IMG/VR virus record: IMGVR_UViG_3300043395_000447
Coordinates: 1-35,053 of that record
Direction: 5' to 3' (one strand)
Length of the DNA: 35,053 bases
Source of the DNA: a virus
In this document: positions 3,416-34,478 of the stretch, piece after piece
Layout: each line of letters starts with the position of its first letter
Numbering within the stretch: the first letter of the stretch is position 1
The notes under the pieces: model-generated
What the model saw: only the letters and a program-made list of their open reading frames with translations
Told to the model about the DNA's origin: nothing
Database searches by the model: none
Made by a program: the position numbers and the translations under genes

Positions 3416-5152
3416 ATGGCAGATCCAGCATTTTCTAGTGCGCTACAAGAACTTACAGGAATGCCAGATCCATTGGCTTTTAAAAAGGCTGCGCCGATTG
3501 CAGATCCATTCGTTCAAAAAACACCGCCATTGGTGCGTGGTGGCGGCATATTTAAAGAAGAACCTGTTGCAGCAGCACCAACAGATAAAACTTATGAGCC
3601 TCCCGTAGATATTCCTTTGCCGGAGTTGCCTGATTACGAAACAACAGTTGCACAACCAGCAAGACTGTTATCGCAAACCCAGCAAGAATATGAAACATTT
3701 TTGGGCGAAAAAGAAGCAGACAAAGCAAAGCGTGAAGCTAGCCAGGCACGGCGCAAATTAACGGCTGCGGATAGATACAGAACTGATTTGCAAGCAGAGC
3801 AGATCAGAAAAGAACGTGACGCTTTTGAATCTCAGTTGGCAAAACCTTTTGTGCCGACACAGCAGAACTTTACTGATCTAGCAACCATGTACAGCTTGAT
3901 CGGTGTGTTGGGTTTTGCTATTGGCGCGGGTGGTAAGGGCAATGCGATACAGGCCATGAGTGCCATGAATGGCATGGTTGAAGGCGCTCGTCAAGGTCGT
4001 GAAGACTTGTACGAAAAAGAGAAAGATGCGTTTGAATACAATGCAAAAGCACTGCAAACCAAAATCAATTCTCTTAACAGCAAAATAAAAGAAATTGCTG
4101 AGTTGGCAAAAGTTGATTATGAGAAGGCTGATTTGGAAGCAGACGTTATGTTTGCAGAAGAAGGCGCTGAGTTTCTTAAAAAGTACAAAGACAAGGTTGG
4201 TCTTGTTAACACAATAAAAATGCTGCAAGAACAGGTTAAGGCTGGCGAGAAGTTGTATGAACTTAGAACTAAAGAAATAACTCGCATTGAAGAAATAAAC
4301 AAAAAGGCAAGAGACAGGTTTGAAGAAAACATTAGAAACATAGAAGTAAAGAGAGAAATAGCTGAACAAACGGCTGAGTTAAGAACATGGCTGGCTACTC
4401 AATCTGATACTACTCGCAGAGAACTTGCTGATGCTCAAGAAACGTTGCGTAGAGATCTCGCGGCTAAAGACGAAGCTGCTCGAAAAGAACGTGATGCGGA
4501 AAACAATAGAGTTCGTCAAGAAATGCAAAGAGAAAGAATAGCGGCAGAAGAAAGATCAAAAGCAAGCGAAAGATCATTAAGGCTCCTTATAGCCCAAATG
4601 AATGATAGGAGAGCAAGAGACAAAGCTGACACTAAATTAGACAAGATTCCACAAAAAGACAGAGATGCTTACCAGCTAAGAGAAACAACTATTCCTGCCC
4701 TGGAATCTGGTTTGCAAACACTTGACCGCTTACAGAAAGAAGGTAAGTGGAAAAAGATGACGGGTTTGTTGGCTATTGATCCTCGGGCTGCTGAAGCTGC
4801 ATTTAGTAATGATCCAGAAGCATTAAGTCTTATCAGGACGTTTGCTCGATTCCGTAGCGCAGAGTTTGAAACCGCTGGTAAGGCGCTGACGAAGATGGAA
4901 GACAAAATCTTGTCTCCGCTTTACAGGTCTGATTTGCGTACATATGAAGCTACTAGAAACGCAATGGACGAAGGTTTGAAAGAAATGAAAAGGCAGAAGC
5001 AGGGATTGGAAAACCAGTTCCCAAGCCTGAAACGCAGAGCAGAGGGTGAAGTAGAACTGCCTACGCCCAAAAATCAAAAAGAGTTTGATGCGTTGAAAAA
5101 AGGCGATATGTACATTGATCCTGATGACGGTAGAGTTTATAGGAAGAAATAA
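3416..5152 (+). CDS. Coiled-coil internal virion protein, 578 aa
   Basis: After a Pro-rich N-terminus (residues 1-80), this protein is dominated by long Lys/Glu/Arg coiled coil (roughly 85-150 and 190-410). The coil is interrupted by a hydrophobic Gly-rich patch near 158-175 (MYSLIGVLGFAIGAGG) that could insert in a membrane. The C-terminal tail contains FDALKKGDMYIDPDDGRVYRKK-like sequence, a terminal module I associate with phage internal and ejection proteins. It follows the previous stop by two bases and precedes the next gene by two. The coding sequence is rich in AGA arginine codons, unlike the packaging genes. Ejection-protein status is inferred from order and composition. Confidence 0.65.
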   Translation: MADPAFSSALQELTGMPDPLAFKKAAPIADPFVQKTPPLVRGGGIFKEEPVAAAPTDKTYEPPVDIPLPELPDYETTVAQPARLLSQTQQEYETFLGEKEADKAKREASQARRKLTAADRYRTDLQAEQIRKERDAFESQLAKPFVPTQQNFTDLATMYSLIGVLGFAIGAGGKGNAIQAMSAMNGMVEGARQGREDLYEKEKDAFEYNAKALQTKINSLNSKIKEIAELAKVDYEKADLEADVMFAEEGAEFLKKYKDKVGLVNTIKMLQEQVKAGEKLYELRTKEITRIEEINKKARDRFEENIRNIEVKREIAEQTAELRTWLATQSDTTRRELADAQETLRRDLAAKDEAARKERDAENNRVRQEMQRERIAAEERSKASERSLRLLIAQMNDRRARDKADTKLDKIPQKDRDAYQLRETTIPALESGLQTLDRLQKEGKWKKMTGLLAIDPRAAEAAFSNDPEALSLIRTFARFRSAEFETAGKALTKMEDKILSPLYRSDLRTYEATRNAMDEGLKEMKRQKQGLENQFPSLKRRAEGEVELPTPKNQKEFDALKKGDMYIDPDDGRVYRKK

Positions 5153-7914: not shown

Positions 7915-8119
7915 AGTGCCTGGCGCTGAAGAACTGAACTGGAGCCAGAAATACGCCAAGGCTGTTCGTCCACAGAAACCGGCTGACGCTACCGAACGGT
8001 TCCAGAAATGGCAACCAGGTCAAGTGCCTATGGGTGGCTTCCGTTCTGTATTCTGCTTTGATGACAGCTACAACAGCAAGCAAAGCCCGACTTCAGGCGG
8101 CGGCAAGAAGGTGTACTAA
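7880..8119 (+). CDS. Hypothetical protein, 79 aa, Lys/Pro-rich
   Basis: It overlaps the upstream gene by 35 bases in another frame. Its ATG follows AGGA at a spacing of about six bases, and its stop overlaps the next ATG (TAATG at 8117-8121). The protein is hydrophilic, with QKYAKAVRPQKPADATERFQKW and a Gly/Lys tail (SGGGKKVY). I recognise no domain. The tight coupling at both ends argues it is translated. Confidence 0.65.
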   Translation: MRDPKDLTYKSKVPGAEELNWSQKYAKAVRPQKPADATERFQKWQPGQVPMGGFRSVFCFDDSYNSKQSPTSGGGKKVY

Positions 8120-8445
8120 TGGGTATCATGGCCTTTAGCCCAATGGGGAACACGGTAACGTTTACCGCTGCCGTATCCCCGCCTACGCCCGTTCAGGCAA
8201 CATCGACCATTATTGGCGCAACACAGTACCGGATTCACAATCAAGGCGCTGTGGTGGTTTACCTTGGTTTTGGCCCGACTGCTAGTGCCGCGACCACAAT
8301 GGCAAACACGACGGTCACAGGATCTACGCTGACCTTGATGCCCAATTCGGTGGAAGTCTTTACCCTGAACGCTAACCAATACTTTACTGGTGCAACTGCC
8401 AGCAGCACTGCTGTTGTCACGATTGTGTCGGGGGATGGACAGTAA
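8119..8445 (+). CDS. Small beta-rich tail-associated protein, paralogue of the protein at 34149
   Basis: The 108-residue protein aligns end to end with the 109-residue product at 34149-34478. Shared blocks include GNTVTFTAA, PTPVQ, QYRI, YFTG.TAS and the GDG near the C-terminus, and roughly half of residues match by eye. Composition (Thr/Ala/Val/Gly-rich, no charges in the core) predicts a beta sandwich typical of minor tail or decoration proteins. Both copies sit immediately before a gene for an adhesive tail protein, so the pair looks like a duplicated two-gene cassette. The exact virion position is unknown. Confidence 0.75.
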   Translation: MGIMAFSPMGNTVTFTAAVSPPTPVQATSTIIGATQYRIHNQGAVVVYLGFGPTASAATTMANTTVTGSTLTLMPNSVEVFTLNANQYFTGATASSTAVVTIVSGDGQ

Positions 8446-9139: not shown

Positions 9140-9555
9140 TTAACTCGCGCAGCTTAGATGACCTGCTGCCGCAAGTTAAATCCCGTGTTGAGGCGTTTAT
9201 TAAGGCGGCAGATGCGGCTAATATTGATCTGCTAGTCACCAGCACTTATAGGGATCATGAGAGCCAGAATGCCTTATACGCGCAGGGAAGGACAGCGCCA
9301 GGGAAGATCGTCACTAACGCAAAGGCTGGTCAATCGTTTCACAATTTCCGGTGCGCTGTTGATGTTGTTCCTATTGTCGCTGGTAAGCCCAGGTGGGATG
9401 TCAAAGACGATGTTTGGCAGAAGATTGGCGCGTTGGGAAAAGCAACAGGATTAGAATGGGCAGGTGATTGGAAGCGGTTTAAGGAGTATCCGCACTTCCA
9501 GTACACAGGGGGATTGACATTAGCGCAGCTTCAGCAGGGAGCGAAAATTGCCTAA
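9136..9555 (+). CDS. Endolysin, M15-family L-alanyl-D-glutamate-type peptidase
   Basis: The 139-residue protein shows the M15 (VanY-like) zinc peptidase pattern. TSTYRDHESQNALYAQGRT at 35-53 is followed by SFHNFRCAVD with zinc ligands His69 and Asp76, then GLEWAGDW at 105-112 and HF with His120. It cleaves peptide cross-bridges in peptidoglycan. Length equals the usual single-domain form, with no signal peptide, so export depends on the coupled holin just upstream. L-Ala-D-Glu versus D-Ala-D-Ala specificity cannot be settled by eye. Confidence 0.92.
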   Translation: MINSRSLDDLLPQVKSRVEAFIKAADAANIDLLVTSTYRDHESQNALYAQGRTAPGKIVTNAKAGQSFHNFRCAVDVVPIVAGKPRWDVKDDVWQKIGALGKATGLEWAGDWKRFKEYPHFQYTGGLTLAQLQQGAKIA

Positions 9556-9778
9556 GAACGTCAAGTTATCCGTCGGCAGGGGAGAGAAGCTACCAGCCTC
9601 ACAGGGTGCTGGCCTGACTGCTAAAGGCCGTGCCAAGCATAACCGTGCTACTGGTAGCAAACTCAAAGCGCCGACTAAAGATTCTTCCAATCCTCGCCAC
9701 AAGTCTTTTTGTGCGCGTAGCAAGAATTGGAAGGGAGAGCGCGGCAAGGCCGCTAGAAAACGTTGGGGGTGCAGATGA
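9548..9778 (+). CDS. Small basic conserved phage protein (TTG start), 76 aa
   Basis: Translation probably begins at TTG 9548, six bases after a GGGAG site and overlapping the end of the endolysin gene. The product is strongly basic, with the pattern GAGLTAKGRAKHNRATGSKLKAP followed by KSFCARSKNWKGERGKAARKRW. I know this as a widespread small phage protein, probably the DUF6321 type, of unknown function. Its charge suggests nucleic-acid binding. Its stop overlaps the next ATG (ATGA at 9775). Confidence 0.75.
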   Translation: MPKNVKLSVGRGEKLPASQGAGLTAKGRAKHNRATGSKLKAPTKDSSNPRHKSFCARSKNWKGERGKAARKRWGCR

Positions 9779-21830: not shown

Positions 21831-22313
21831 ATGGCAGTATTACATGATTATAAGTGTCCTAATCACGGGTACTTTGAATCGTTTGAGGCGAAATGCCCCA
21901 TGAAACAATGCGATGAAGAGGTCGCTTTGGTCTTCTTGCAGCCGGTGGGTTTGAAGTCGGACAAAACCAAACATAACGACAAAACCCTAAAACAACTGGC
22001 TATGGACTTTGACATGACGGACATCAAGTCGGTTCGTGAGGGCGAGAGCCAATCCGGTTACATGACGCGCAATAACAAAACCGATAAAGAGATTCCCCGT
22101 GAAGCCAGACCTGGTGATGCAGTGATGTGGGGCAATACTGCCGGTGGTCGCTGGCAGCTAGATAGCCTGGTGAAAGGCAACGGTTATAACTCTATTAACG
22201 GGGAGCCTGTGGGTATCAATCCAAAATCCCTTGGCAACTTGACAGCCCCTAAGACTGCGAGTTATATAGCAGACCATGACAACCTACAAATAAACCCCAA
22301 TGCGGATACCTAG
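21831..22313 (+). CDS. Zinc-ribbon-type hypothetical protein, 160 aa
   Basis: ATG 21831 follows AAGGGGAT. The N-terminus has Cys9, His12, Cys22 and Cys27 (YKCPNHGYF, AKCPMKQC), a likely zinc site. The rest is polar with LAMDFDMTDIKSVREGES and a Gly/Asn-rich end. It overlaps the portal gene by 14 bases. Related zinc-ribbon proteins next to portal genes are known in phages without a defined role. Confidence 0.7.
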   Translation: MAVLHDYKCPNHGYFESFEAKCPMKQCDEEVALVFLQPVGLKSDKTKHNDKTLKQLAMDFDMTDIKSVREGESQSGYMTRNNKTDKEIPREARPGDAVMWGNTAGGRWQLDSLVKGNGYNSINGEPVGINPKSLGNLTAPKTASYIADHDNLQINPNADT

Positions 22314-23943
22314 CGACCCAGTACACCGCGAGCAGTTCTATCTGGAATTGATCCAGAAGTGCTTTGTGTCGCGGGAAGAACGCAAGGCTGATTACGCCGC
22401 ACTCCGTTCTTACTATTTGTTTGGTGCAGCGCCGGAAGAATCACCGGCGCTTTTTAACAAGATTTTCCCGCACATTGACCAGTTAACGTCATTTCTCTAC
22501 TCAGCAGAAACGACACGCTTTACCATCAATGTCGGCGCTGAAGTCAACCCAATGGAGCATCGCAAGATCCCCACGTTGACGAACAAGCTGAACGACGAAT
22601 GGCTAAACAGTAACTGCGATCAAGTCTTCTCTACCGCCCTGACATGGGCGCTGGCCTACGGAACTACCTATCTCAAACTCATCGTTAATAACGGCATCCA
22701 TCCGTACATGGTGGAACCGGCTGCAATGGGCGTTTTGCGAGAAGATGTGCCGTACACTGACCGCCAAGAAGCTATTGCTCAAAAGTATTACATCACCAAG
22801 TCCGAACTCTATGCCCGTCTGTACTCGCATCCCAAGCGCGACAGCATCGTCAAAAGAGTGACTTCATCCTATCAGCCGCAGCAGATAGATATTCCCGAAG
22901 GTATTGACCGCATCATTATGTCGCAGAGCAATCCGACAATGGTGGGTACAGTCAATCTGGATCTCTCCGGCATGAACCGCTACAAGGCGCGAGTCTCTGA
23001 AGACACCGTAGAGATGACGGAATTGTGGGTTTGGAACGATGACATACTGGACTATCAAGTAGTTACCATTGCAGAACCAGATGTCATCATCTATGACCGC
23101 CCAGGTGAGCAAGTATTCCTGAAAGGTGAGTTGCCATTTGTTCAGCTTTGCCCTAACCCCATGTATGACTATTATTGGGGTCAGAGTGAAGTTCAGCGCC
23201 TAGTGTTCTTGCAAACCCTGCGGAACAAGCGCATGGAAGAAATCTTGGATCTGCTCTCTAAGCAGGTCGCGCCGCCAACAGCCATGATTGGCTTTACCGG
23301 CATCTTGGATGAAAAGAACTTTGCTTTGAACCGTGCGGGTGGTCTGCTGGCAACGGATATGCCCAATGCCAAAGTAGAAAAGCTGGCTCCGCAAATGCCA
23401 GGCGATCTTTTTGAGGTGATCCGTGAAGTGGATCAGATGTTCGCGGAAGCGTCAGGTATTACAAGCGTCCTCTCAGGCAGAGGCGAAACCGGCGTTCGCA
23501 GCCAAGGACACGCCAGCCAGCTTGCCCGACTTGGCGCATCCAGAGCGAAAAAACGCGCCCTCATCATTGAAGATAGTCTGGAAAAAGTTTCCACCTTGTT
23601 CTTGAAAGCAATTCAGGCTTACGACAATACCAAGCTAGTAGATTCAGAAGGCTTGAAATTTATCCCAGAACAGTTTACAAAGAACTATGTGGTGAAAGTG
23701 GACGCTCACTCCAACAGCCCCATCTTCACCGAAGACCTGCGTCAGTTAGCCTTCAATATGTTTAAGGCTGGGGCTATCGACAAAGAGTCTTTGATAGATT
23801 TGCTTGAACCTCCGATGAAGCAGTTGTTAAAAGAGAAACTGAAGCGCAATGAGGAAAAGCAAGCGCAGCAGCAAATGATGCAACCGCAACAACCGCAACA
23901 AAAACCGGAAGGCAAACCTGACTTGAAAGCGGTAGGTGAATAA
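22300..23943 (+). CDS. Portal protein
   Basis: The 547-residue protein has the long alpha/beta organisation of podovirus portals. HIDQLTSFLYSAETTRF lies near 60-76, EMTELWVWNDD around 240, and the stem and wing region contains QSEVQRLVFLQTLRNKRMEEIL. VRSQGHASQLARLGASRAKKRALIIEDSLE near 404-433 is a helix I recognise from portal proteins of this type. It ends in a Gln-rich tail (QQQMMQPQQPQQK). The portal forms the dodecameric entry of the head and the docking site of TerL. Confidence 0.88.
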   Translation: MRIPSDPVHREQFYLELIQKCFVSREERKADYAALRSYYLFGAAPEESPALFNKIFPHIDQLTSFLYSAETTRFTINVGAEVNPMEHRKIPTLTNKLNDEWLNSNCDQVFSTALTWALAYGTTYLKLIVNNGIHPYMVEPAAMGVLREDVPYTDRQEAIAQKYYITKSELYARLYSHPKRDSIVKRVTSSYQPQQIDIPEGIDRIIMSQSNPTMVGTVNLDLSGMNRYKARVSEDTVEMTELWVWNDDILDYQVVTIAEPDVIIYDRPGEQVFLKGELPFVQLCPNPMYDYYWGQSEVQRLVFLQTLRNKRMEEILDLLSKQVAPPTAMIGFTGILDEKNFALNRAGGLLATDMPNAKVEKLAPQMPGDLFEVIREVDQMFAEASGITSVLSGRGETGVRSQGHASQLARLGASRAKKRALIIEDSLEKVSTLFLKAIQAYDNTKLVDSEGLKFIPEQFTKNYVVKVDAHSNSPIFTEDLRQLAFNMFKAGAIDKESLIDLLEPPMKQLLKEKLKRNEEKQAQQQMMQPQQPQQKPEGKPDLKAVGE

Positions 23944-24110
23944 TGGCTAGAGGTGACATTAGACCCAAAGCAGATCAACCTCGCGCTGGTACAAACCAGC
24001 CGATGAAAGATTCGCCGCGAAGCCCTGACTTGCAATACAAAGTTCAAGGCATAAAGAATTTTGACCGTAGCCCCAGCATGAGGACTTACGGACGAACCGT
24101 TAGGGGATGA
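23943..24110 (+). CDS. Small basic protein after portal, 55 aa
   Basis: The ATG overlaps the portal stop (TAATG). The product is polar and basic (MARGDIRPKADQPRAGTNQP, ending SMRTYGRTVRG), without hydrophobic core, probably disordered. It begins a run of four very small basic proteins between portal and scaffold. A DNA-binding or head-filling role is inferred from charge and place. Confidence 0.65.
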   Translation: MARGDIRPKADQPRAGTNQPMKDSPRSPDLQYKVQGIKNFDRSPSMRTYGRTVRG

Positions 24111-24125
24111 GACTAGGAGAAAGCT

Positions 24126-24167
24126 ATGTACAAGAAGATGAAGCGTGGTCGTAAGACCCGTCGTTAA
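24126..24167 (+). CDS. 13-residue Lys/Arg-rich peptide MYKKMKRGRKTRR
   Basis: The mini-gene has a textbook AGGAG ribosome site six bases before the ATG. Nine of thirteen residues are Lys or Arg. It lies 15 bases after the previous stop. A second peptide of the same size and nature follows at 24241, which argues against chance. Possible roles are DNA condensation (as with the J peptides of microviruses), RNA binding, or leader-type regulation of the capsid genes. Confidence 0.6.
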   Translation: MYKKMKRGRKTRR

Positions 24168-24170
24168 TAG

Positions 24171-24188
24171 TTTCCCCGTCCAGGGAAA
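24171..24188 (+). promoter_or_regulatory. Hairpin between the two mini-genes
   Basis: TTTCCC (24171-24176) pairs with GGGAAA (24183-24188) around a 6-base loop. No T run follows. It may stabilise or insulate the mRNA between the two peptides. Confidence 0.4.
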
Positions 24189-24240
24189 GGGTTTGGCTGA
24201 CTTCCCTCTAAGTTGGCCGCTGCTATTTGGAGATACCATC

Positions 24241-24282
24241 ATGGCACGCAAAGCACGCAAAGGCCGTAAGGCACGCAAGTAA
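24241..24282 (+). CDS. 13-residue Lys/Arg-rich peptide MARKARKGRKARK
   Basis: A GGAGAT ribosome site lies eight bases upstream of the ATG. The peptide is a near-repeat of the ARK tripeptide with eight of thirteen residues Lys or Arg, built from GCACGCAA-type repeats. Its stop codon lies inside a strong hairpin. Same length as the peptide at 24126. It is either a real micro-protein pair or a translated leader upstream of the scaffold and coat genes. Confidence 0.6.
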   Translation: MARKARKGRKARK

Positions 24283-24297
24283 TCCGTGAGGATTACT
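24278..24297 (+). promoter_or_regulatory. 8-bp hairpin with GNRA-type loop at the mini-gene stop
   Basis: AGTAATCC (24278-24285) pairs perfectly with GGATTACT (24290-24297) around GTGA, a GNRA tetraloop. The stop codon is inside the left arm. With no T run after it, it looks like an mRNA stability or processing element rather than a terminator. Confidence 0.5.
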
Positions 24298-24337
24298 CCC
24301 TGGCGGGGCGGGGAAATTAAATATACGCCCCCACCTA

Positions 24338-24366
24338 TTGACAAAATTTATGGTTGCGAGTATTCC
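24338..24366 (+). promoter_or_regulatory. Possible sigma70-type promoter before the head-assembly genes
   Basis: A perfect TTGACA (24338-24343) is followed, after 17 bases, by TATTCC (24361-24366), which matches only three of six -10 positions. It lies 27 bases before the next gene start. The -10 is weak, so the call is tentative. Confidence 0.3.
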
Positions 24367-24392
24367 TATCGCAAAATTCTATCGGGGCTATT

Positions 24393-24836
24393 ATGAGCGT
24401 ACCACCGGATAAGTTAATGGAAATGATGAAGTCGCAGCGCGGCGCGGAACAACCATCGCCTATGGCTTCAGAAGCCTCCGCTACCGACCAGACCCCGCCA
24501 ATGTCTGCCCCGATGTCTACGCCAGAACCCAAAATGGGTAACAAGGAAGGCGCACTGGTCAACCTTGGTTTGGCAATCGATCTCATTGAACAATCACTTC
24601 CCGCAATCGGCAGTGCATCGCCTGAAGGCCAAAAGGTCTTGGCTGCGCTGCGTACTTTGACCGGCGTGATCGGCGGCAAAAAAGATTCCGTCAACGAACT
24701 CAAGCAATCTGAGATCCTTCAGATGTTACAAGCACTTCCACAGGCGGGTGGCGCAACGCCGGAAGGTAAATCATTGGCAGCAGCGCCAGCAATACCTGGT
24801 ATGCCTATGCCAGGCGCAACCCCTCAACCTATGTAA
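24393..24836 (+). CDS. Pro/Met-rich head-assembly-region protein, 147 aa
   Basis: I choose ATG 24393 (after GGGG) over an upstream TTG. The protein has a Pro/Ser/Met-rich N-terminus, a central helical domain (EGALVNLGLAIDLIEQSLPAIGSASPEGQKVLAALRTLTGVIG), and a Pro/Ala/Met tail ending PGATPQPM. The central domain is a type found in proteins between portal and coat genes in podovirus-like phages. A role in capsid assembly is inferred from place only. Confidence 0.65.
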   Translation: MSVPPDKLMEMMKSQRGAEQPSPMASEASATDQTPPMSAPMSTPEPKMGNKEGALVNLGLAIDLIEQSLPAIGSASPEGQKVLAALRTLTGVIGGKKDSVNELKQSEILQMLQALPQAGGATPEGKSLAAAPAIPGMPMPGATPQPM

Positions 24837-25049: not shown

Positions 25050-25580
25050 ATGTCACTAGAAGATCTTTCACCTGAAAGCCGCGACGAACTAGCAATGCTG
25101 GCTCGTCAACTGGCTGAAAATCCTGCTACTCGCAAGGATATGCTGCGTCTGACCAAGAAAATCAGACCAGATATGCCTATTCCAGAATTGGAAATCGAGG
25201 AATACACACACTCAGCGGTACAAAAAGCAAATGAACGTGTAGAGCAACTGGAAGCCAGATTACGCGAGAAAGATGCGATGGATGAGTTGAACTCCCGTCG
25301 TAACAAACTCAAGGCGAAAGGTCTGATTGACAAGGACGAAGATATTGATGAAGTGGAGAAAGTGATGCTGGACAAAGGTATTACTAACCACGAAGTAGCC
25401 GCAGAATATTGGCGCTGGATGCAGCAATCCGCTGCCCCAACACCTACCGGCTATAACCCGTCTGCTATCAACAAGTTCGACCTGTCGAAATACTGGAAGA
25501 ACCCGACTGCTGGCGCACGGGATGAAGCATCAAAAGCACTCAATGAGTTGCGGAAAAATCCGCGACCCATTGGTTTGTAA
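25050..25580 (+). CDS. Probable scaffolding protein, 176 aa
   Basis: The protein is charged and mostly helical with a central coiled coil (about 58-95, VQKANERVEQLEARLREKDAMDELN) and a basic C-terminus (ALNELRKNPRPIGL). It precedes the coat gene by 31 bases, the standard place of a scaffold. AAGGGGATACC precedes the ATG. There is no sequence signature that proves scaffolding function, but length, charge and order agree. Confidence 0.7.
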   Translation: MSLEDLSPESRDELAMLARQLAENPATRKDMLRLTKKIRPDMPIPELEIEEYTHSAVQKANERVEQLEARLREKDAMDELNSRRNKLKAKGLIDKDEDIDEVEKVMLDKGITNHEVAAEYWRWMQQSAAPTPTGYNPSAINKFDLSKYWKNPTAGARDEASKALNELRKNPRPIGL

Positions 25581-25611: not shown

Positions 25612-26613
25612 ATGCCTATTGGTGGCGGTATTCTTCCGGCAACGGGTAGTACGCAATTTACGGAACTTACATACGTAACCCGTAGGGCGTTTATTCCGAA
25701 GCTGGTCGTACAACTCTATAACTCAACACCGCTGATGGCGGCTCTGATTGCTAACTCGCAACAGGCTTCTGGTGGTGTTTCGTCCGTTACTGTTCCCGTC
25801 CAGGGTTCTCAGTTTGTAAATGCTCAGTGGTCGGATTACAGCGGCTCGTTCGCTCAACCATCCGTTCAGCAGGGTGCTTACAACGCTGACTTCAACCTAA
25901 AGCTGATGATTGCTCCAGTTCCGTTCCTCGGGATGGAAGGTGCAGTTCAGCAAGACGCAGCTATCATCCCTCTGATCGAAGCGCGTATGAACGACGCGAC
26001 TAACGTCATGATGGACGCGATGGCAACGGCTCTGTACAACAACACGACTAACACTCAGCAGTTCATCGGTCTGCCAGCCGCTGTGTCCTCGTCCGGCACT
26101 TACGGCAACATCGACCGTTCGACCTACACCTGGTGGCAGTCGAAGCAATACGCCGCTGGTTCGGTTAACCCAACCCGTCAAAACATTCTTCAGTACATTT
26201 CCGGTACTGTGAAGAATGGCGCTGAAGTGCCTAGCTTTGGTGTTTGCGGTTTTGGTACTTGGACTCTGCTGGCGCAAGACTTTGTTGGTCAAGAGCAGTA
26301 CATGATTACCCCAGGCAACGGTTTTGACGGTGATGCCAATGGCCCACAGGCTGCATTCCGTGCGCTGATGGTTGCTGGTGTACCCATCTATCCTGATCCC
26401 TACTGCCCCGAAGGTACTGTGTACTTCCTGAACAGCAACTACCTCTCGCTCTACATCCATGAGCAAGGTTCGTTTGTGTTCACGGGCTTTGAATCGACTC
26501 TCCCGAACTGGCAGATCGGCTACGTTGGCGCAGTGCTGACAATCGCTGAACTGGTTAATACCAAGCCGAAGTCGATGACCAAGGTGACGGGCTACAACTC
26601 TCTCACACTGTAA
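25612..26613 (+). CDS. Major capsid (coat) protein
   Basis: The 333-residue product lies between the scaffold-like gene and decoration and adaptor genes. It has an N-terminal arm (LTYVTRRAFIPKLVVQLYNSTPLMAAL), a spine-like helix (IIPLIEARMNDATNVMMDAMATALY) and a C-terminal A-domain-like region (LMVAGVPIYPDPYCPEGTVYFLN). This order matches HK97-fold coat proteins. GGAGATAAACT precedes the ATG. No protease gene is seen, so maturation is probably without cleavage, as in P22. Confidence 0.85.
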   Translation: MPIGGGILPATGSTQFTELTYVTRRAFIPKLVVQLYNSTPLMAALIANSQQASGGVSSVTVPVQGSQFVNAQWSDYSGSFAQPSVQQGAYNADFNLKLMIAPVPFLGMEGAVQQDAAIIPLIEARMNDATNVMMDAMATALYNNTTNTQQFIGLPAAVSSSGTYGNIDRSTYTWWQSKQYAAGSVNPTRQNILQYISGTVKNGAEVPSFGVCGFGTWTLLAQDFVGQEQYMITPGNGFDGDANGPQAAFRALMVAGVPIYPDPYCPEGTVYFLNSNYLSLYIHEQGSFVFTGFESTLPNWQIGYVGAVLTIAELVNTKPKSMTKVTGYNSLTL

Positions 26614-33625: not shown

Positions 33626-34159
33626 ATGTTTGCAATAGTTCAAAATGGTCAGATTATGTTGCTAGTGCAAGCTGGCACACCTTTCACTTGGAATGGCGTA
33701 GATTATCCAGCCAACTGGTGCAACCTCTCCTCGCCTGAAGATAAAGCAGCTATCGGCATGGTAGATGTGGTTTACGGTCAGCAGCCTAGTGACCAATACT
33801 ACTGGGTGACAGAAGATGCGCCCGTCTACAACGCCAAGACTAACCAAGTAGACATCAACTTCACGGCAACGCCTAAAGACCTGACCAGCGTCAAAACCAA
33901 CGCTATCAACCAAATCAACGGCACAGCCTATTCCCTGCTATTCCCAACCGATTGGATGGTGGTCAAGGCGGTGGAAACTAGCACGACAGTTCCTGCGGCT
34001 TGGAATACCTGGCGGCAGTCTGTACGTAATACGGCAACAACGGCGGTCAATGCGGTAGAAGGCGCAACCAATGTGGATGGTGTGGCTGCGGCGGTATCTG
34101 CGATAGTCTGGCCTAAAGATCCTGACCAACTGGCTTTGGAGGCTGCAAATGGGGCTTAA
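33626..34159 (+). CDS. Tail-fibre-associated protein, 177 aa
   Basis: The product has an N-terminal beta part (MFAIVQNGQIMLLVQAGTPF, then TWNGVDYPANWCNLSSPEDK) and a C-terminal part SLLFPTDWMVVKAVETSTTVPAAWNTWRQSVRN followed by a helical region. The LLxxTDWMVxxxxE and WxxWRQxVR pattern recurs in phage fibre-assembly or fibre-tip proteins (DUF4376-like context). It overlaps the next gene by 11 bases. A fibre chaperone or a minor fibre component is plausible. Confidence 0.65.
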   Translation: MFAIVQNGQIMLLVQAGTPFTWNGVDYPANWCNLSSPEDKAAIGMVDVVYGQQPSDQYYWVTEDAPVYNAKTNQVDINFTATPKDLTSVKTNAINQINGTAYSLLFPTDWMVVKAVETSTTVPAAWNTWRQSVRNTATTAVNAVEGATNVDGVAAAVSAIVWPKDPDQLALEAANGA

Positions 34160-34478
34160 TGCTTTTACCAAGACGGGCAATACCGTCACCTTCACAGCGG
34201 CTGGAACGGCTCCTACGCCCGTCCAATGCGCTTCTACGACCTTGGGTGGCAACCAGTACCGGATCATCAATGCGGGTACGGTAACGGTGTTTCTGGGATA
34301 CGGCTCATCGGCTTCTGACGCAACCAACAATGCGGTTCAGGTTACCAGTAGCCAGACCGCTTTCCCGCTGTTGCCAAACACAGATGAGATTTTGACATTT
34401 GTACCGAATGCTTACTTTACTGGCGTAACAGCATCGGGCACGGCAGTAATTTACATCACGCCAGGCGATGGCCTCTAA
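34149..34478 (+). CDS. Small beta-rich tail-associated protein, paralogue of the protein at 8119
   Basis: The 109-residue product aligns end to end with the protein at 8119-8445 (GNTVTFTAA, PTPVQ, QYRI, YFTG.TASGTAV, GDG). It overlaps the preceding gene by 11 bases and precedes the tail fibre gene at 34488, as its paralogue precedes the C1q-like gene. It may be an attachment module for the adjacent adhesin. That role is inferred from the duplicated arrangement. Confidence 0.75.
   Translation: MGLNAFTKTGNTVTFTAAGTAPTPVQCASTTLGGNQYRIINAGTVTVFLGYGSSASDATNNAVQVTSSQTAFPLLPNTDEILTFVPNAYFTGVTASGTAVIYITPGDGL

Follow-up and report, generated by a model that had tools for sequence, protein, structure and literature searches.

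What could two genes of only 13 codons each be doing among the head genes of a tailed phage? The question is raised by IMG/VR virus record IMGVR_UViG_3300043395_000447, a 35-kb tailed-phage record whose two ends repeat each other and whose whole stretch of 35,053 nucleotides is hereafter called the window. An earlier note on this DNA had drawn attention to two very basic mini-ORFs (open reading frames) with ribosome sites between the portal and scaffold genes. Both are present (hereafter, A and B) and the placement was right, with two further genes, p147 and p61, also preceding the probable scaffold gene. Comparison with relatives indicates that A and B are coding, and reveals beside them two covarying RNA pseudoknots, PK1 and PK2, both of which the earlier reading overlooked. 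Our tentative reading, to which we assign a probability of roughly 0.4, is that A and B are ultra-short genes for nucleic-acid-binding counter-ion peptides made late in infection, with B placed under the control, perhaps autogenous, of PK1.

Occurrence and conservation of the mini-ORFs

A and B are the only ORFs with at least 50% lysine or arginine (K/R) among the 189 ATG-initiated ORFs of 10 to 16 residues found on both strands of the whole window. Each carries K/R at 8 of its 13 residues, and a hydrophobic core is absent. With the threshold set at 60% K/R or more, shuffled sequence contained 0.025 such ORFs per strand, none of them preceded by a ribosome site.

To count occurrence we relied on loci fetched by capsid, by portal, or as GenBank relatives (L001-L162), and thus blind to the mini-ORFs; loci fetched later through mini-ORF patterns are biased and were used for diversity only. 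The interval from portal to p147 is complete in 136 of the blind loci, where 111 hold two such ORFs, 15 hold one, and 9 hold none. After removal of duplicates, both ORFs occur in 86 of 105 loci and at least one in 97 of 105. Across all loci, pattern-fetched ones included, we found 92 peptide variants of A, with the near-consensus M-Y-K-x-x-K-R-G-R-K-x-R-R, and 46 of B, with the near-consensus M-(A)-R-K-x-R-K-x-R-K-x-R-K. A length of exactly 13 codons, as first described, holds in the window and does not hold throughout the relatives: A runs from 9 to 25 codons (13 in 172 of 211 relatives) and B from 10 to 23 (13 in 104 and 12 in 63 of 203). A few members use a GTG start codon.

The carriers are an abundant, uncultured family of freshwater (lake) tailed phages. 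All 213 of the new loci retrieved with two degenerate mini-ORF patterns fall in this family. One generalised polybasic pattern, a narrow test of other families, returned three matches, and the two inspected were chance occurrences within longer frames or at their start. The phage collection held no cultured near relative, and the named phages nearest by capsid protein (Mx8, Mx9, BUCT555, and a TM7 phage), tried as relatives, were set aside at less than 30% identity. The sole hint of a host is the presence of the capsid gene on two contigs of lake betaproteobacterial metagenome-assembled genomes, where binning errors are possible.

Two GenBank metagenome genomes, MW202825 and MW202753, share 71-72% identity with the window over the locus region. 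Both leave A and B unannotated and carry antisense ORF calls across the region instead, much as the earlier note expected of gene finders. The antisense calls (L081:4752-5012, minus strand; L082:4740-4877 and 4874-5038, minus strand) are probably spurious. A phage small-gene catalogue (Fremin 2022) reportedly lists small genes predicted from conservation in phage metagenomes, and the 13-residue family may already sit there as an unnamed cluster.

Evidence for coding

Heterozygosity at codon positions 1, 2, and 3 is 0.28, 0.21, and 0.49 in A and 0.14, 0.15, and 0.35 in B, a third-position excess equalled in 25 of 20,000 (A) and 96 of 20,000 (B) permutations of positions within the ORF. A has a ratio of nonsynonymous to synonymous proportions (pN/pS) of 0.19-0.28, and B one of 0.29. 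The lengths of the ORFs change in-frame, and the spacer between them, of 66 to 89 nt, occurs in all three phases. Because the variation is mostly at third positions and the frame is kept while the spacers vary freely, the comparison argues that A and B are coding and under purifying selection. The proposal that these basic peptides are translated thus gains strong comparative support, to which the conserved ribosome sites add, and a check of relatives for frameshifts and stops left the mini-ORFs standing.

Three other accounts of the conservation were considered and rejected. Chance ORFs are ruled out by the K/R and ribosome-site shuffles together with the codon-position permutations. The idea of a conserved hairpin in the RNA of A (GGTCGTAAGACC) was dismissed by eye, since relatives break the hairpin and keep the peptide. 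Recoding or hopping from A to B, of the kind known as T4 gene 60 type bypassing, is excluded by a spacer in all phases, by B having its own ribosome site, and by the occurrence of A and B singly.

A pseudoknot linked to B

Between A and B, relatives share the form GGG-TRT-GGCTGC-TT-CCC...GTGGCC, which folds as the H-type pseudoknot PK1. In a structure-blind MAFFT alignment of 52 sequences, 92.8% of its cells pair, against 38-70% when the partner strand is slid and 84.9±0.6% when shuffled, and 43 cells are changed on both sides, against 8.8 in shuffles; none of 500 shuffles reached the covariation score. At the outer two pairs of stem 2, pairing is kept in each of the 19 distinct combinations; both-sided changes number 8 and 7, which 0 of 1000 shuffles matched. 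An unusual tandem U-G/G-U core is conserved at the centre, except in one group that has mismatches there. By eye, stem 2 appears rewritten in L031 and still pairs, and the first pair is A-U in L250.

PK1 accompanies B. A mini-ORF follows 310 of the 317 matches to the PK1 motif across all loci; another three are followed by a B cut by the contig end, and four resemble chance. B stands without standard PK1 only in exceptions, namely L031 and L250, which have the variant knots, and L211, L223, and L243, the first two with a different hairpin. PK1 is kept where A was not found (L029, L030, L182, L216, L274), and A occurs without PK1 in L015, L058, and L101. Moreover, PK1 ends, on its 3' side, 21.1±1.8 nt short of the B start (n=172), a tighter spacing than the 18.7±2.9 nt that separate it from the A stop. 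These comparisons identify PK1 as a leader belonging to B, and because of the fixed spacing and the linkage it probably controls the translation of B. A scan against Rfam 15 gave nothing at gathering score, only chance-level matches (E 4.4-4.7). RNAalifold, which is unable to draw pseudoknots, recovered one stem each of PK1 and PK2.

A second pseudoknot and a promoter-like site before p147

PK2 lies between B and p147 and has a mean score of 28.1, against 16.8±5.3 in shuffles (65 sequences). The blind alignment has both-sided changes at four of four pairs. In relatives of the TGTC subtype, both-sided changes occur at each of the seven positions of stem 2, and pairing reaches 90%, against 58-68% when slid, a count that leans towards structure since this set was extracted through stem-1 anchors. 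The sequence of PK2 varies freely, and its last loop is A-rich in many relatives. As an intrinsic terminator PK2 would require a following T run, and such a run is missing in the window and most relatives and present in a few.

PK2 normally abuts TTGACA-N16/17-TA, a promoter-like site. TTGAC[ATG] occurs within the 95 nt upstream of p147 at 220 of 234 loci, compared with 134 of 1165 control windows. At six loci lacking the site, the distance from the end of PK2 to the start of p147 is 15-21 nt, resembling that between PK1 and B. In many relatives (L047, L064, and others) a palindrome, GTTTGTAA-GTGG-TTACAAAC, separates the -35 and -10 elements of this site, as for a repressor operator; the corresponding part of the window (24338-24392) has no clear copy. 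In L211 and L282 a long GC-rich hairpin directly upstream of the promoter-like site apparently takes the place of PK2.

Losses across the family

On a portal tree of 74 rows, rooted at the midpoint only, the two-ORF state is scattered throughout, and 8 changes suffice to account for all labels taken together, compared with 18.5 for shuffled labels. The members with neither ORF form one well-supported group (100/100). Because it adjoins a group with A only, stepwise loss of A and B is suggested, and the tree as a whole contains several apparent losses of the mini-ORFs. The clade that lacks A, B, PK1, and PK2 keeps the promoter-like site of p147. No relocated mini-ORFs besides a known copy were found elsewhere in four records of ORF-poor lineages.

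The mean net charge of p147 (noted for L013-L026) is -11 in members without A and B and -4.2 in two-ORF members, a difference confounded by ancestry. In the clade without A and B (L013) the C-terminus of p55, the gene upstream of A, reads YGRMKR, like the start of some A peptides (MYGRKMKR...), and A might derive from, or be replaced by, the p55 tail (23943-24110).

Possible function

Under our preferred reading, A and B would each yield a soluble, probably unfolded peptide with a charge of about +8 and a mass of about 1.5 kDa. The peptides are expected to bind nucleic acid, because 8 of 13 residues are basic and a hydrophobic core is absent, and to do so late in infection, because the genes lie among those for the head and packaging. 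Their most likely role would be that of a counter-ion, neutralising or condensing phage DNA while heads are assembled and packaged. With its end some 21 nt ahead of the B start, where the ribosome footprint has its edge, PK1 would control how much B is translated; free B, no longer taken up by DNA, could then bind PK1 and shut off further synthesis of itself, in the manner of T4 gp32 acting on the pseudoknot of its leader.

Two known systems resemble parts of this scheme. The Microviridae J/VP8 proteins are small Arg/Lys-rich packaging proteins (PMC11281519), thought in phiX174 and SpV4 to neutralise DNA and encoded among capsid genes; A and B are likewise very basic and lie between portal and capsid genes. 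J and VP8 differ in being longer, in having a C-terminal hydrophobic anchor that is buried within the capsid, and in belonging to single-stranded DNA phages, whereas A and B come from a tailed phage. VP8 of SpV4, for instance, has 38 residues and ends in Phe38 (PMC11281519). We found no J-type hydrophobic C-terminal anchor in A or B, nearly all variants of which end in R or K. The precedent for autogenous control through a leader pseudoknot is T4 gp32 (PMC535899), where, as for B, an H-type pseudoknot lies upstream of a phage ribosome site and before a nucleic-acid-binding product, which B would presumably be. In contrast to B, gp32 is a folded single-stranded DNA-binding protein, and next to the pseudoknot of its operator runs a UUAAA-rich tract. 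No UUAAA or UAAA repeats lie between PK1 and B in the window or in the intervals of the listed relatives. A and B therefore belong to neither system, searches for the J-type anchor and for the gp32 tract having both come back negative. Tandem pseudoknot repeats accompanied by a gene for a ToxN-type nuclease characterise type III toxin-antitoxin RNAs, another system considered for comparison.

Several observations weigh against the counter-ion reading. R and K stand at fixed positions, beyond what a pure counter-ion needs, which would equally fit sequence-specific binding. PK1 could act without any peptide. For double-stranded DNA (dsDNA) phages, no need for packaged peptides is known. Both peptides and both pseudoknots are missing from one clade, and in several lineages a single peptide is present, so the function of the peptides is constrained yet dispensable in some backgrounds. 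The full picture of a dsDNA tailed phage with free, protamine-like genome counter-ions of about 13 residues, one of them metered by an autogenous pseudoknot, is one we hold to be unlikely. If true, few known structural gene products would be smaller than such peptides, and the operator would roughly equal the gene in length; the usual view that metal ions and polyamines neutralise the packaged DNA of dsDNA phages would change if the peptides coat DNA.

The fixed R and K positions lend some weight to a different role, in which A and B are RNA-binding regulators of the arginine-rich-motif kind that read the hairpins, PK1, and PK2 and set the expression of the packaging and capsid operons, with no structural part in the virion. 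Lambda-type N peptides, which are arginine-rich and basic, are paired with boxB hairpins, and A and B likewise lie near small hairpins, some with GNRA-like loops; they differ in their late structural position, in being a peptide without the rest of N, and in that no nut arrangement was identified. Two basic peptides adjoin two covarying pseudoknots here, and PK1 keeps both sequence and shape, including its tandem U-G/G-U core, as a recognition site would. However, A occurs without any pseudoknot in L015, L023, L024, and L028, B without PK2 in L029 and L030, and PK2 without B in L101 and L105, while the free variation of PK2 means that a single peptide would not read it by sequence. We regard this role as doubtful, if a serious contender; were it correct, A and B would form minimal natural peptide-pseudoknot pairs. 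Rather improbable is a host-directed action, in which the peptides bind polymerase, ribosome, nuclease, or membrane in favour of late infection and their position among head genes is incidental. Many small phage proteins target host factors (PMC11323111), and loss in some clades fits a host-dependent benefit; the locus is nevertheless fixed among late head genes in every member seen, and the 213 pattern-fetched loci all belong to one phage family.

The earlier note, whose suggestions of DNA-condensing and of RNA-binding peptides are both plausible, had also offered that A and B are translated leaders. In that case attenuation or coupling would regulate the capsid genes through the act of translation and not through the product. 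Strong ribosome sites on short ORFs, with adjoining RNA structures upstream of an operon, are what such leaders would look like, but the idea is weakened by the promoter-like site that lies downstream of both ORFs and persists in the clade devoid of A, B, and the pseudoknots, although read-through transcripts are possible. Each ORF is also lost without the other, PK1-B persists without A, and the A-B spacing in all phases speaks against recoding, which together make leaders quite improbable. That the ORFs have no peptide function at all, being chance or a by-product of conserved RNA structure, which the region does hold, is scarcely credible in view of the third-position variation, the 92 A and 46 B variants, the in-frame lengths, the conserved ribosome sites, the GTG starts, and the hairpin-like stretches in A that relatives break while keeping the peptide. 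Genes so short are usually dropped by annotation, yet the peptides, their ribosome sites, and two covarying pseudoknots are kept across a very common lake-phage family.

Genomic setting

The plus-strand order is terminase (18922), a methyltransferase-like ORF, portal, p55, A, B, p147, p61, probable scaffold, and major capsid protein (Table 1), and in all members seen the locus is placed amid late head genes. Matches to PHROG families for head and packaging were obtained with the proteins of terminase, portal, and capsid, and none with the neighbouring small proteins. The earlier note's small ORFs at 23943 and 24847 do exist, with 55 and 61 aa respectively, and the former is kept in nearly every relative inspected.

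Table 1. Features of the mini-ORF locus, with positions in the window.
Feature	Position	Strand	Basis or remark
Portal	22300-23943	+	
p55, small basic protein, 55 aa, upstream of A	23943-24110	+	ADQPR and LQYR-like motifs shared by homologues in almost every member inspected
Shine-Dalgarno of A, AGGAG	24115-24119	+	Sequence; kept in relatives
Mini-ORF A, MYKKMKRGRKTRR	24126-24167	+	92 peptide variants in relatives; third-position variation
Small hairpin downstream of A stop	24171-24188	+	Predicted fold; hairpin at same place in many relatives
PK1, H-type RNA pseudoknot	24188-24218	+	Stem 1 24188-24191/24204-24207, stem 2 24195-24203/24210-24218; covariation, linkage to B, fixed distance to B start
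Shine-Dalgarno of B, GGAG	24229-24232	+	Sequence; kept in relatives
Mini-ORF B, MARKARKGRKARK	24241-24282	+	46 peptide variants in relatives; third-position variation
PK2, H-type RNA pseudoknot	24297-24331	+	Stem 1 24297-24300/24311-24314, stem 2 24305-24310/24326-24331; covariation
Promoter-like site, TTGACA-N17-TATTCC	24338-24366	+	TTGAC[ATG] in 95 nt before p147; putative promoter of p147-capsid operon
p147, 147 aa, opens capsid operon	24393-24836	+	No known family; served as downstream landmark
p61, 61 aa	24847-25032	+	
Scaffold (probable)	25050-25580	+	
Major capsid protein	25612-26613	+	

In one relative (L022:4733-5200) an ORF that by eye resembles an HNH-type homing endonuclease is inserted between p147 and p61. 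Elsewhere in the window, a further small and very basic ORF of 76 aa (9548-9778) has the C-terminal end WKGERGKAARKRWGCR, and a paralogous pair of ORFs of about 108 aa (GNTVTFTAA...PTPVQ) lies in different parts of the genome, at 8119-8445 and 34149-34478.
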